Part shown: positions 12,152-45,566 of the stretch, piece by piece
Layout: the number at the start of each line of letters is the position of its first letter
Numbering within the stretch: position 1 is the stretch's first letter
Source of the DNA: Daucus carota subsp. sativus
Lineage: Eukaryota; Streptophyta; Magnoliopsida; Apiales; Apiaceae
Direction: 5' to 3'
Assembly: GCF_001625215.2 (NCBI RefSeq)
Contig: NC_030384.2
Location: 46,224,390 to 46,288,389 of the forward strand
DNA length: 64,000 nucleotides
Made by a program: the position numbers and the translations under genes
The notes under the pieces: generated by a model
Database searches by the model: none
Seen by the model: only the letters and a program-made list of their open reading frames with translations
What the model was told of the DNA's origin: nothing

Positions 12152-15100
12152 CTACCTAAATATATGCTTCCCTTGCAAGTAATTCGAAGCACTATTCACA
12201 GTTTCTTCCTGCAGATAATGACCACAAACAAGTTTCATAGCTCTCCAGTGAATATCAAAACATTGATATACACTCCACTGCTTAATGTCATATCATACCA
12301 TATCATGAAGGCTATCCTGAAAGCCAAAATGCCCGTGCACAGTTGGTGCTGTGGAACTGACCTGTCCCTGCAGCTCAGGATTCCAATCCGAGTGTCAAAT
12401 GTCGTTCATATATACAACAAAACAAAGCAAAACTTTTTGAAAGAGACAGCCATCAAACCCTCATTACCAGTGCATGCAGGGTCTGATGAGCACTGAACTG
12501 ACCAAATCGAGATGTAATTGTATTTAACTGTTCCCAATTGCAAAATAAAAAAATAAATTAAATTCACAAGTCATAATTCATTAGTGTCAGGCTGTCAGCA
12601 TACACCAGATCAGTATAGTTTATCATATACCAGTCCATGCATGCCCTGTTGGTTGGTGTAATGCCCATCCTGCATCAAAGTTATCAAGTTCATCTCTTTC
12701 TATAATGATTTCTATATTAGAGAGACTAAACAGCAGTTAAATGGAAGATGAATATTAATCTAGGCTTCGTGAGGTGTTCAAATAATAGAAGAGGTACCTC
12801 TCCTTCAGCAGTCGGTTGGGAACTTAAATAGCCATCAAAATTTGGAGTTCTAGATCTAAAACCCTACAGTAAAGTGCAAAAAACACATCAATATCTATAT
12901 CTTTAACTTAAAAAGAGATGGTACAAAAATTTCTTATTGGCATACCTTCCGTTGCATTTCCTGTTGAGGAACATAAGAAATATCCGTATTACTTGCTCTT
13001 TCACCCAACACCTATAATCACAAAACACTGAAACGCATCAAAAAAAATTCTTTCATGAAGGTCACAAGAATGTCATTATCAACAAGAACCTATGTTAAAC
13101 ATTATTTTAATATAACTTTGTTAAATTAAAATCAAGAGATAACAAACCATTTGATTGGCAGCGACTTGTCTCCTAATTGCCATTAACTCAGTTTCAGTGC
13201 GTACCTACACTAAACTTCAAAATGGTAAGTACATAAGCATTTCAAATCTTCAGTGAAGTAAGAACATCCTCCCACCACTTTTAACCTTAGCTAACCTTCT
13301 GCTTCTTTTGTGTTTTTTTCCTTTTAGACGTCTTGCCAATATTGCTCCTTCCATTGTCTTCATTGACGTATAAAAGCCCCTGCTTGCGGATGGTAGATTC
13401 TGAAGTACCCTTACCAAAATTATTTACATCCACACAATGTTTCAAGGCTTCTTCAACTGCACAGAATGCAATATTGTAGCTTTCCTGAGACACGGCTCCT
13501 TCTTCACCCAGTTTTGCAGCAAGTTTACACAGATCATTAAACCTTTCAACCCTGTAATAAGGCCGTTTATAATTAACATCCAATGTCTGATTATTTTTTG
13601 CATCCTTCGTCCACCTTTTCAGTATATACTGAGATGGTATGTTGGATATACCAGAGAGCTGAAGAACTATCAATGCGTGTCTACAGAGAAAACCTCTGTA
13701 TTCAAATGAACGGCATGAACAACAAATGCTTGATTCTGCTTCACTCCAGCTTACACAGAAATTCCGTGTCCCTTCAAAATCATCAACCAGACATGTTAAT
13801 ACGGTCTTTCCTTGGTTTTCCTTTTGTATACTACAAGAATCTGTTTCTAATACTTCTACTTGGAATTCTTTGAATATTGCATGTGTATATACCACTGACA
13901 TTTGTTTCTCAAAAGGCGACAGGGTTCTTAATATGGGCTGTTTCTTTAGTATTTCGAAATCAGCTTTGTCCTCCTCCGCATACCTCTCATTCAGAAATAC
14001 TTTGTACTGATCAATAAACTCCTTAAATGTAATTTCGGCATTTATTTGTTTGTCAAAGAAAGAGGATATACTCTCGCAACGTTCAGTTGTAGAGAGTCCA
14101 GCCAAAGAAAAGTCCCTGATATAAGTTGGGACCCATTTTTTGCGATCTTTATACAAGGATTGAATCCACTCATTCTCGTTAAGTTCAAATCTACCAACCA
14201 GTTTTCGCCATCTTTTTTCAAATTCTTCATCAGTCCAACACTGAAGTGCACATTTTTTAAATTTCTTACTAAAATTTTCAACATTACTTACTGTCTGACC
14301 AAGGTTCTCAGGAATTTTCCTAAGTATATGCCAGAGACAAAAACAATGGTGTGTTTCTGGAAATACCTCCGAAGTTGCCTCCTTCAATGCCTCGTCTTCA
14401 TCAGTAATAACCACTGCAGGAGCTTGACCATTCATTGCTCTAAGCCAAGTGCGCATCAACCAAAGAAATGAAGACGTAGTTTCATCCCCAATTAAAGCAC
14501 ACCCAAACAATATGAACTGGAAGTGATGATTTACACCAAAAATTGGAGCAAATGGGATCTTATATTTCTGCCTTACATAATTCATATCAAAAAAGACTAC
14601 GTCAGAGAAGTTTTTGTAGTCATTTCTACCTTTTGCATCAACCCAAAACACATTTCTCATACGCTTTTCCTGATCCAAATCTATAGCATACAAGAAATTG
14701 GGATTTTCAGCTCGCGAAGTCATAAAGTATTCAAATAGAACTTGTACATCATCCTCATCTAAGGATAACTGAAGCCCTTTCTTTTGACCCGCAATAACAC
14801 CAGATTGCTCGCTCCTGCCTTTGGTGGCATGACTAAAGTTATCAGGGCAAATCTCATGATTATGCTCTTTAACAAAACTGTATATAAACCATGTCCCGTC
14901 ATTCCGTTTTTTTATATACATGCTTGCCTTGCAATCCGTCTTTGGACATGATCGGAAACTAGATATTGCACTTGTCTTGCGCTCATTTCCGAACCTAGAA
15001 CATGAAATTTTCACATCAATGAACTTTCCTGATTTTTTGGATCGACGACTGGCTTTTATAGTAATGCCGAATCCCACCAACCTGGCATATTCCCTGTAAA

Positions 15101-15359
15101 AAGAATACGCCGCCTCCTTTGATTCAAACTCCAACCCACATTGGGGCTCATTTATGTTAGCCCGACTACTGTCAGCTTGTAATACTTGGCCTCTCATCAC
15201 TATGTTTTCAGCCTCATTTCCAGCAGAGTTTCCAAGAACAGGTCCAGTATTTCTAGAATAATTCGTATCCACTTCCTCAGCAAGCATGAAAGTGCTTGTA
15301 TCTAATATCCTGTCTAATTTTCCTCCCTGTACAGACGGATGTTCAAGATCAATCTCCAT
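12152..15359 (-). CDS. FRS2: FAR1-related transcription factor FRS2 (domesticated MULE transposase)
   Basis: A nuclear transcription factor derived from a Mutator-like transposase, predicted at 805 residues. It starts at the ATG at 15359 (MEIDLEHPSV); the longer frame opens with GTG and is not used. Exons: 13296-15359, 13148-13204, 12946-13011, 12798-12863, 12631-12669, 12299-12367, 12152-12208, all phase 0. The FAR1 DNA-binding zinc finger spans about residues 80-170 (SYFG-type CSRFG, KTDCKAS, EHNHE). The MULE transposase core spans about 250-350. The SWIM finger is C547-x-C549 and C559-x-H561. The stretch GFGITIKASRRSKKSGKFID matches Arabidopsis FRS2 (At2g32250) better than FHY3. The big exon ends at AAG|GTTAGC; unspliced, it would stop two codons later. 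A 5' UTR intron is likely, with its donor near 15805. Confidence 0.92.
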
Positions 15360-43900: not shown

Positions 43901-45566
43901 TAATAATAATAATAATCACACACAGACACACCCCTGAACTCAGTTTGTCATTGTTTCTGTGGCTCTCTATCTGACTTGAATACCATAATAACTGGACTAG
44001 ACTTGGAGAATGGGGAGATCATGTTACTCTACAAGCAGCAGCAGATCGGGTAAGTAAAAGTCAAATCATTTCCTCTACACTATATTTTGTAAAATGTTCT
44101 TTTTTTTTTGGATGCACAACAGTTGACTGCTATGCACAGATATTGTCCAACTCTATGTTAAGTACTGAAACCGATTTCCAAAATAGATAGACTAAGGCAT
44201 GCCAGCTAGTGATTGTCTATCACAGAGTTAGACCCTTTGTTGACGAATATAACTTTCCAGCTCCTAATAAATGAAGTCGGAGGATGTTTAATTCCTTAAT
44301 TTACATTATTTCACAATTTTAGTGTCCAAGACCAAGACCCGTGGTAGAAAATCCTGCATTTTACTTGATATGATGTACTATTACGGCCTTAAACCTTATG
44401 TGTCATCCTTGTAGCCATCTTGCAGTGCATGGAATATCCCTATGACCCCATAATATTAATTGTTTGATTTCTGTTTTGTTTACCTCTTATTGTTTAACTT
44501 TAGTGGCTCTTGACCCTGATTTGCAGTTCTCAGCAAAAATTTGTCTAGTTACCTCTTTTCGAGATTCAGGTTATATTGAGATTGTTCCCAAGGAAAAGAA
44601 TCCTATAAGAGGTAATCGTATTTATATAATTTTTCATTTTGGTTGTTTACTTGATTTAATTAATTTATTTTTGTTAAAGCTTTTAAGTTCTGTGATCTTT
44701 TGGTTGTCAGAGTATATCACCAGCTAGTTTAAAAGCTAATACGAGATCTACACTATTATTCTAAAGTTTTCTGTTATTAATGTTACACAAAAATACTAAA
44801 GGAATATTAAGAAGGTTAGTCTAAGTTTACTGTTATTGATATTACACATAAATTCCAAAGGAATATGAAGAGTTATAGAATATTTGCATGTTTTTGTGCA
44901 ACATACCTAATTTAATATACTATTCATTCTTCCCAGGCAGGTACATATGTTTATCTTATCTTAGTGCAACAAACATGATGAATAGGTTGGTTATGAGGCC
45001 TAATTTGTTGATCAACATGCTATATAACATAAGTGTGGGAATTGGGTACTTTTTAATAATCTTTGGTCAAATTTAATGATTTAACGTAGTGCAGTTACTC
45101 TAGTCAATAATGCTTTAAAGGGTGTTTTTTGAATGTTCATTGTTACTTTGTGGAATTTGGTTTGCTGTTCCTGTGCAACTCCTATCAATAAATTCAACAG
45201 ATTATCTGTTAATCTTTCAATGGTTATTAGTAGAAAATAAATATATAGTAAATATTTTTCATGCATAGATTGATATTTTGACATGTCAACTTGAGAGATG
45301 GCTACAGTTAAATGTCCCGCCTTTGTTTTGCTCACATATATATAAATAATCATTTGCAGAGTTATGGCTAAGCTTTTGGAGTGAAATACATTACAACTCA
45401 TTGTACGAAAGAGGAGGTGAAGAATCTACATACACGCATTGATGTTCTTTTATCTTATTTACAGCGTCCAAAGCTAACTGTTATCTTCTGTTTCAATCTA
45501 TTGCTAGATGTTCCTGTGAGAGCTGCGAAAAAGAAGCATTGGTATAATTTAGCTCCATTCAGATGA
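40974..45566 (+). CDS. OTU11: OTU-domain cysteine protease (deubiquitinase), OTU11-like
   Basis: A 233-residue OTU-family deubiquitinase, which removes ubiquitin from proteins. Nine exons join with correct phases: 40974-41147, 42122-42195, 42562-42616, 42887-42961, 43747-43820, 44001-44049, 44527-44611, 45360-45416, 45508-45566. A Ser-rich N-terminus is followed by LSHLDSIPHTPRINGDIPD. The catalytic motif MEGDGNCQFRALADQL has Asp97 and Cys100. Then come the conserved GEWGDHVTLQAAADRF, KICLVTSFRD, and the catalytic His206 in WSEIHYNSLY. The tail is PVRAAKKKHWYNLAPFR. The family in Arabidopsis comprises OTU9-OTU12; closeness to OTU11 (At3g22260) is judged from memory of the SHLDSIP and NDATLDH regions. 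An untranslated first exon probably lies near 40700, with an acceptor at 40960. Confidence 0.92.

Follow-up and report, generated by a model that had tools for sequence, protein, structure and literature searches.

The window, by which we mean the whole analyzed stretch of 64,000 nucleotides from carrot chromosome 4, harbors a row of genes that extends from 12.4 to 45.6 kb and comprises, in this order, an FRS2-type gene, FHY3, a DHHC S-acyltransferase, a PICC-type coiled coil protein, a CYSTM gene and an OTU gene. A gene of the CYP97 clan (1-1.2 kb) precedes the FRS2-type gene. These families and their order, as claimed in an earlier note on this DNA, were confirmed by Pfam, hand-spliced models, BLAST, PDB matches and a tree; the named families follow each other in the stated order, and gene content and order are real. 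The features are as follows.

1..1220, plus strand: CYP97-clan P450, C-terminal part, which seems to run off the left end of the window (Pfam p450 on 960-1220; two CYP97-type entries as best PDB matches)
2321..4957, minus strand: HSP70 of cytosolic type, diverged, located between the CYP97 and FRS genes (Pfam HSP70 on 2321-3982; first exon 4700-4957 by eye)
12457..15359, minus strand: FAR1-RELATED SEQUENCE (FRS) gene, FRS2-type (Pfam FAR1, MULE, SWIM; main exon in ORF 13290-15398, small 3' exons by eye)
17039..20185, minus strand: FHY3 ortholog (Pfam FAR1, MULE, SWIM; main exon starting with the ATG at 20185 and five more pieces down to 17039; splice sites)
24893..31070, plus strand: DHHC protein S-acyltransferase (Pfam DHHC E 4e-31 with the hand-spliced protein; exon borders)
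33008..36413, plus strand: long coiled coil protein of the PICC/PICL type, hydrophobic anchor at the C-terminus (BLAST and hydropathy; start codon not fixed)
37646..37786, minus strand: last exon of a CYSTM gene, with the CYSTM module (Pfam CYSTM E 1.5e-12)
40974..45545, plus strand: OTU-domain deubiquitinase of OTU11/OTU12 size (Pfam OTU E 3.5e-13 with the hand-spliced protein; exon borders not all clean)
47910..50123, plus strand: NAD-dependent sugar-nucleotide epimerase, right of the block (Pfam Epimerase and GDP_Man_Dehyd)
53610..57509, minus strand: HSP70, right of the block (Pfam HSP70 on 56715-57509 only; other pieces and extent by eye)
59643..61050, minus strand: putative N-acetylglucosamine-kinase-like gene, right of the block (Pfam BcrAD_BadFG E 5.1e-27 with joined pieces of 59643-60668; first exon by eye)

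Identity of the genes

The open reading frame 17993-20212 on the minus strand encodes the FAR1, MULE and SWIM domains, as does 13290-15398 on the same strand, and its product is the sister of Arabidopsis FHY3 with support 100/100 in a tree with a provisional Arabidopsis sequence. The three domains and the tree position together mark this gene as the FHY3 ortholog. Its FRS2-type neighbor, a candidate FRS2 ortholog, has no resolved placement among the subgroup I copies in the tree; its inferred first-intron donor reads AAG|GTTAGC. The donor inferred for the first intron takes a similar position in four of the six genes read, namely FHY3, FRS2, FAR1 and the copy at C4:40.12. Among solved structures no relative of the FAR1 family was found.

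For the P450 (960-1220) the nearest solved structures are carotene epsilon-monooxygenase (77 bits) and LUTEIN DEFICIENT 5 (71 bits), which we take to be CYP97C1 and CYP97A3, followed by the next entry with 44.5 bits. The earlier assignment to CYP97B holds for the clan by Pfam p450 and these PDB matches, while its “B” is assumed by elimination. The next copy of this gene in the carrot genome is 57% identical.

The DHHC gene is presumably of the PAT19/PAT20 type, and in the 1.9 kb that separate it from the PICC gene no IQD5-like gene is apparent on inspection. The identity of the PICC gene is based on a BLAST comparison with provisional pieces of Arabidopsis PICC (E 1e-42; best value with the reversed window sequence 0.098), and none of its pieces matched a Pfam family. 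According to the hydropathy profile its long coiled coil product has a C-terminal hydrophobic stretch, a putative membrane anchor, followed by a short tail, and it is by these features that PICC and PICL are defined in a published study (PMC3581476). The CYSTM gene is one of two loci found in the carrot genome (10 scored candidates). The hand-spliced OTU model has 228 amino acids with the OTU domain at 96-204, i.e., it is a short protein with a C-terminal OTU domain like Arabidopsis OTU11 (At3g22260; 245 amino acids, OTU at 107-219). A Pfam search of the same region translated in three frames, each stop being written as X, yielded no match, whereas the hand-spliced model matched OTU.

Several genes lie outside the row. 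The HSP70 at 2321..4957, whose nearest full-length kin is 73% identical, was absent from the block of the earlier note. We take the epimerase to be of the UDP-arabinose 4-epimerase type, the right-hand HSP70 to be of the HYOU1/HSP70-17 type and the gene at 59643..61050 to be N-acetylglucosamine-kinase-like. A narrow literature search gave no published description of this carrot gene row among the matches listed. On the whole, the row is a case of conserved synteny of the usual kind, to which one useful refinement is added.

Counterparts in Arabidopsis and grape

In Arabidopsis, FHY3 and FAR1 presumably each lie beside a DHHC gene. We take chromosome 4 to contain a DHHC gene (At4g15080), FAR1 (At4g15090) and CYP97B3 (At4g15110), and the segment At2g32190-32250 on chromosome 2 to contain CYSTM and FRS2 genes. 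RPL27 is presumably present in all three Arabidopsis regions. With a provisional query it was not found in the window, and since it lies elsewhere in carrot (C3:0.37 and C8:27.29 Mb) this marker is of no help.

Among the locus numbers put forward earlier, At3g22180 (DHHC), At2g32240 (PICC) and At3g22260 (OTU11) agree with papers, and the others are provisional. The chromosome 3 segment At3g22170-22260 shows the order FRS - DHHC - CYSTM - OTU (DHHC and OTU loci from papers, the rest provisional), but it differs from the window by IQD5, which follows the DHHC gene At3g22180, and it is not known to contain PICC or FRS2. A fourth piece was found on chromosome 1, where PICL (At1g05320; as At2g32240 for PICC, from PMC3581476) and CYSTM1 (AT1G05340) are two locus numbers apart. 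The chromosome 2 and chromosome 1 (At1g05320-05340) segments resemble the window in having PICC or PICL near CYSTM, on chromosome 2 presumably together with FRS2; in contrast with the window they are not known to contain FHY3, DHHC or OTU.

In one study of grape (PMC12112247) the counterpart of FHY3 is VvFRS6 (Vitvi03g01239) and that of FAR1 is VvFRS7 (Vitvi03g01243), and in another (PMC12279613) Vitvi03g01244 (VvFRS8) is annotated as FRS2. These sources place all three genes within six consecutive locus numbers of chromosome 3, provided that number order reflects neighboring places. As in the window, the FHY3 ortholog and an FRS2-annotated gene of subgroup I are close to each other, but FAR1 is retained in the grape cluster whereas it is found on C1 in carrot. 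No loci for grape DHHC, PICC, CYSTM, OTU or CYP97B genes by the FRS cluster were found among the matches listed in a literature search. The earlier note had held that unlinked FRS2-PICC and FHY3-PAT-OTU groups in grape and other outgroups would make the linkage secondary; for the FRS part, on these published loci, such a separation did not occur, and the idea of an ancestral block survives the grape test made on the FRS members.

A rearrangement in the carrot lineage that joined the FRS pair with the DHHC-PICC-CYSTM-OTU genes, with a merely coincidental match to Arabidopsis, would fit a grape linkage seen for FRS members alone as well as the dispersed carrot paralogs of the six families. We nevertheless consider it unlikely. 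All three Arabidopsis segments named in the earlier note map to the window order without inversion if FRS2, FAR1 and FHY3 are treated as one slot, for which the chance from order alone is 1/108 (P 0.009) if the partly provisional loci hold. Moreover, 7 family neighbors stand against a rough expectation of 0.1 (family sizes and loci provisional), and the PICC-CYSTM linkage on Arabidopsis chromosome 1 is known from papers.

Age of FHY3 and FAR1 and probable losses in carrot

Carrot has separate orthologs of FHY3 and FAR1, one each, with support 100/100 in the tree (Arabidopsis sequences provisional). The FAR1 ortholog is absent from the window and located on C1. Silent-site differences, computed for two pairs, are saturated both for FHY3-FAR1 (pS 0.77) and for FHY3-FRS2 (pS 0.84), and both exceed the value of 0.63 implied by the published carrot gamma peak at Ks 1.39; with silent sites this saturated the dating is only coarse. 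Judged from these sequences, again with provisional Arabidopsis ones, the split of FHY3 and FAR1 is placed before the separation of carrot and Arabidopsis, and both genes appear older than any Arabidopsis duplication. A recent genome duplication as the origin of this pair was rejected because of the separate carrot orthologs, the saturated silent sites and the shared grape cluster.

The earlier note regarded the window as keeping the pre-duplication order. This was not borne out because carrot underwent two tetraploidizations after gamma, as stated in PMC6995200, and also FAR1 is missing. Far from being an unduplicated segment, the window is one among as many as four copies produced by these duplications, and it is itself fractionated, with FAR1 on another chromosome and block families dispersed elsewhere. 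It is improbable that an intact old order was kept here and that FHY3 and FAR1 are duplicates of one gene parted by an Arabidopsis whole-genome duplication (WGD). Their presumed position beside DHHC genes in Arabidopsis (only At3g22180 from a paper) would speak for such a history, but the two well-separated, saturated carrot orthologs, their single cluster in grape and a window without FAR1 in a twice-doubled genome speak against it.

No sister block was found elsewhere in the genome: at the 18 places listed, members of the six families compared (FRS, DHHC, PICC, OTU, CYSTM, CYP97) formed 0 cross-family pairs within 0.5 Mb; at none of these places were at least two of the families together. 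With HSP70 added, one pair 9.2 kb apart (C5:27.10 Mb) was obtained, which is not beyond chance. A paralog of PICC is located at C3:11.30 Mb. The 200 kb that surround FAR1 on C1 were searched at E 0.001 to 0.01 for the remaining block families, and none was detected; short exons limit the power of this search. Pfam named five of ten ORFs in these surroundings (NAD-kinase-type, BRCT, AMP-binding enzyme, receptor kinase and dioxygenase). Such dispersed single paralogs fit the gene loss of 71-92% per copy versus grape that PMC6995200 gives for the Dc-alpha and Dc-beta events, although no sister block of the row was found that combines two or more of these six families.

Origin of the row

The best explanation, to which we assign a probability of about two thirds, is that the window is a well-kept but incomplete copy of an old eudicot neighborhood, in which local duplication gave rise to the FRS array and whose copies were differently fractionated. 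The old row would have consisted of CYP97B, a tandem FRS array (FRS2, FAR1, FHY3), the DHHC transferase, PICC, CYSTM and OTU, and the array would probably predate the gamma triplication. The row would have been copied in subsequent genome doublings, and different members would have been lost from each copy. On carrot chromosome 4, FAR1 would have disappeared while FRS2, FHY3 and the right-hand genes remained, whereas Arabidopsis may have kept sets on four chromosomes (some loci provisional): FRS2 with PICC and CYSTM; FHY3 with transferase, CYSTM and OTU; FAR1 with transferase and CYP97B; and PICL with CYSTM1. We infer both that the entire row goes back to a common ancestor and that the differences arose by loss. 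The dispersed paralogs in carrot without a second block at the places listed, the unresolved placement of the FRS2-type gene and the location of the potato genes on two chromosomes speak against this explanation.

That FHY3, FAR1 and FRS2 are gamma-triplication copies brought together later, and no tandem duplicates, is very improbable: saturated silent sites, which permit only coarse dating, leave some room for it, but gamma copies are expected on different chromosomes while the grape trio shares one within six locus numbers, and both pS values lie above the gamma level. Selection holding the row because its genes are regulated jointly in responses to light or stress is hardly credible, with the row presumably broken in Arabidopsis, the FRS array broken in potato and the roles of the families unrelated as far as known.

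Within the favored neighborhood history, the most plausible reading of FHY3 and FAR1 is that of old tandem duplicates which later losses sorted differently; grape, which keeps part of the row, suggests that they began as neighbors and not as products of genome doubling. With slightly more than even confidence we lean to the view that both were old tandem neighbors of FRS2 and no ohnologs, and that reciprocal loss in the array beside duplicated DHHC genes mimics a WGD pair, the flanking synteny being real. The array would then have been sorted differently in carrot, with FRS2 and FHY3 still together and FAR1 at another place, and in potato, whose matches to FHY3 and FAR1 lie apart on chr07 and chr08.

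FHY3 and FAR1 are light-signalling genes that are regarded as a classic pair of Arabidopsis paralogs. If the proposed history is true, synteny lists naming them as a WGD pair would have been led astray by reciprocal losses within a tandem array, and the estimates of their ages and functional divergence would refer to a pre-gamma event. The row would also provide a compact example of fractionation, open to checks in any eudicot genome.

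Gene content and order

The row proposed from the sequence in an earlier note, i.e. (CYP97B) – FRS2 – FHY3 – DHHC transferase – PICC – CYSTM – OTU, is borne out in both its families and their order. The list of genes in the window (numbers are window positions) reads from left to right:

leftmost, plus strand: end of a CYP97-clan P450 gene
2321-4957, minus strand: first HSP70
after the first HSP70, minus strand: FRS2-type gene
17-20 kb, after the FRS2-type gene, minus strand: FHY3
after FHY3, plus strand: DHHC transferase
from 33008, after the DHHC gene, plus strand: PICC-type coiled coil
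37646-37786, after PICC, minus strand: CYSTM gene
after CYSTM, plus strand: OTU gene
after OTU, plus strand: epimerase
after the epimerase, minus strand: second HSP70
rightmost, minus strand: N-acetylglucosamine-kinase-like gene

These assignments follow from domain evidence, except that the PICC-type gene is without Pfam family and was recognized by a BLAST match to PICC pieces together with hydropathy. The gene models come from manual splicing, with approximate borders in parts of the OTU and FRS2 genes. Strands were absent from the list in the note; the CYSTM gene is found on the minus strand.

The window occupies C4:46,224,390-46,288,389 of the searched genome, which comprises 441,086,747 bases in 11 contigs, with the listed matches on chromosomes C1-C9 (C1 spans 56.3 Mb). 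Among 35 other listed genome matches the closest full-length relative of the HSP70 at 2321-4957 reaches 73% identity, which is low for a cytosolic HSC70. In the region of the HYOU1-type gene (54757-54912) two tandem copies of 80 bp are 93% alike. The family model detected two CYSTM loci, 37646-37786 (minus strand) and C5:9159816-9159959, among 10 candidates scored genome-wide, where introns may conceal more; Arabidopsis possesses more than these two. Genes of the Dau c 1 type form two large tandem clusters (C8:28.16-28.24 Mb and C7:0.31-0.44 Mb), and the best copies of the C8 cluster show 94-98% identity to a provisional sequence of the carrot allergen Dau c 1, which fits Daucus carota or a very close relative as host.

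Identity and age of the FRS genes

In a phylogenetic tree built with provisional reference sequences of Arabidopsis FHY3 and FAR1, FHY3 groups with the gene at 17-20 kb of the window and FAR1 with a gene at C1:45.64 Mb (support 100/100 each); with respect to these provisional references they are the carrot orthologs. The FRS2-type gene and a copy at C4:40.12 Mb stand beside FHY3/FAR1 without resolved position, and a copy at C2:39.47 Mb is next out. Judged from its neighbours and from grape, it is reasonable to regard the FRS2-type gene of the window as putative FRS2. A putative intron donor after the lysine-rich tail occurs in four of the six genes read (FHY3, FRS2-type, FAR1 and the C4:40.12 copy). 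Genome-wide there are many loci with a MULE transposase domain and long open frames (150 scored out of 813 candidates, the window FRS genes included).

Silent-site values, obtained by simple Nei-Gojobori counting on trimmed alignments, reveal saturated divergence, with pS 0.77 for FHY3-FAR1, 0.84 for FHY3-FRS2 and 0.73 for FRS2 and the C4:40.12 copy. Seven of ten FRS pairs (FRS2-FAR1 lies outside the ten) are saturated beyond correction and three have Ks 2.7-3.4. Since the carrot peak of gamma, the old eudicot triplication, lies at Ks 1.39 (PMC6995200), corresponding to pS about 0.63, the FRS genes most likely split before gamma. Other pairs differ: Ks is 0.87 between the window DHHC gene and its paralog at C6:5.60 Mb, and 1.05-1.48 between the window PICC gene and its counterpart at C3:11.30 Mb, values that would be compatible with the carrot doublings or with gamma. 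The genome contains two PICC-type genes, with an open frame of 1029 aa at C3:11.295-11.299 Mb versus 618 aa for 33008-34861 in the window, a contrast reminiscent of Arabidopsis, where PICC is long and PICL short. For other plants one PICC ortholog is given in PMC3581476.

Corresponding genes in Arabidopsis, grape and potato

If the locus numbers are taken as true and FRS2, FAR1 and FHY3 count as one slot, all three multi-gene Arabidopsis segments run collinear with the window, the joint chance being 1/108. A rough count with approximate family sizes gives seven family neighbours against 0.1 expected. Among the loci named in the note, At3g22180 (DHHC, with IQD5 at At3g22190; PMC4684048), At2g32240 (PICC; PMC3581476) and At3g22260 (OTU11; PMC3950621) agree with the literature; the other locus numbers of the block families are provisional. 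A fourth remnant, which the note did not list, is found on chr1, where PICL (At1g05320; PMC3581476) and CYSTM1 (AT1G05340; PMC13205671) are two locus numbers apart.

Grape is not known to have undergone a later whole-genome duplication, and its consecutive locus numbers presumably denote neighbouring places. On its chr3 VvFRS6 (Vitvi03g01239) corresponds to FHY3 and VvFRS7 (Vitvi03g01243) to FAR1 (PMC12112247), and a QTL study names Vitvi03g01243 FAR1 and Vitvi03g01244 FRS2 (PMC12279613); both sources together place three FRS genes in six consecutive locus numbers, as an ancestral array would predict. The note had held that unlinked groups in grape would speak against its reading; for the FRS part this cluster argues against such a separation. 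In potato, genes matched to FHY3 and FAR1 reside on chr07 and chr08 (PMC10347153), therefore the array is not universal.

Duplication, probable loss and a proposed ancestral row

That the window keeps a pre-duplication order, as the note supposed, does not hold, because carrot passed through two tetraploidizations after gamma (PMC6995200) and FAR1 is gone from the window, its ortholog sitting on C1. No other block family turned up in the 200 kb read around this ortholog. Paralogs are scattered: DHHC at C6:5.60 Mb, with a further, distant DHHC paralog at C4:41.7, PICC at C3:11.30 Mb, CYSTM at C5:9.16 and OTU kin on C6, C7 and C4. Among 18 listed places of the six families no cross-family pair lies within 0.5 Mb. 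This dispersion fits heavy post-duplication loss (71-92% of collinear genes per copy versus grape; PMC6995200) and yields no positive second block.

On C5 a CYP97-clan gene (27097991-27098161, 57% to that of the window) and an HSP70 (27107204-27108835, 63%) are 9.2 kb apart, resembling the adjacency at 1-5 kb of the window. Since random placement, with 34 HSP70 places, yields a comparable pair within 20 kb in 8% of cases, it is not counted as block evidence; the two genes may go back to an old duplication of the pair or be neighbours by coincidence. A MULE-domain ORF at C6:5579795-5581912 (853-aa open frame, 31% to window FHY3) lies 16 kb from the C6 DHHC paralog; since comparable ORFs at 31-32% exist elsewhere, it looks like a transposon copy rather than an FRS gene.

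These observations are best explained by an old tandem FRS array, which would have had CYP97B on one flank and DHHC-PICC-CYSTM-OTU on the other. Genome doublings would have copied array and flanks, and each lineage would have thinned its copies differently; both the former unity of the whole row and gene loss as the process are what we infer. The observation in the note is confirmed, and its ancestral-block reading is supported in part, with two corrections: the window is not pre-duplication, and FHY3 and FAR1 most likely predate the duplications in Arabidopsis. Synteny conserved in fractionated form is a well-known phenomenon. In Arabidopsis, FHY3 and FAR1 would then have ended up on different chromosomes, each next to a DHHC gene; they would look like a duplication pair, yet they probably do not derive from a single gene through that event, and it is this refinement that deserves a proper test.
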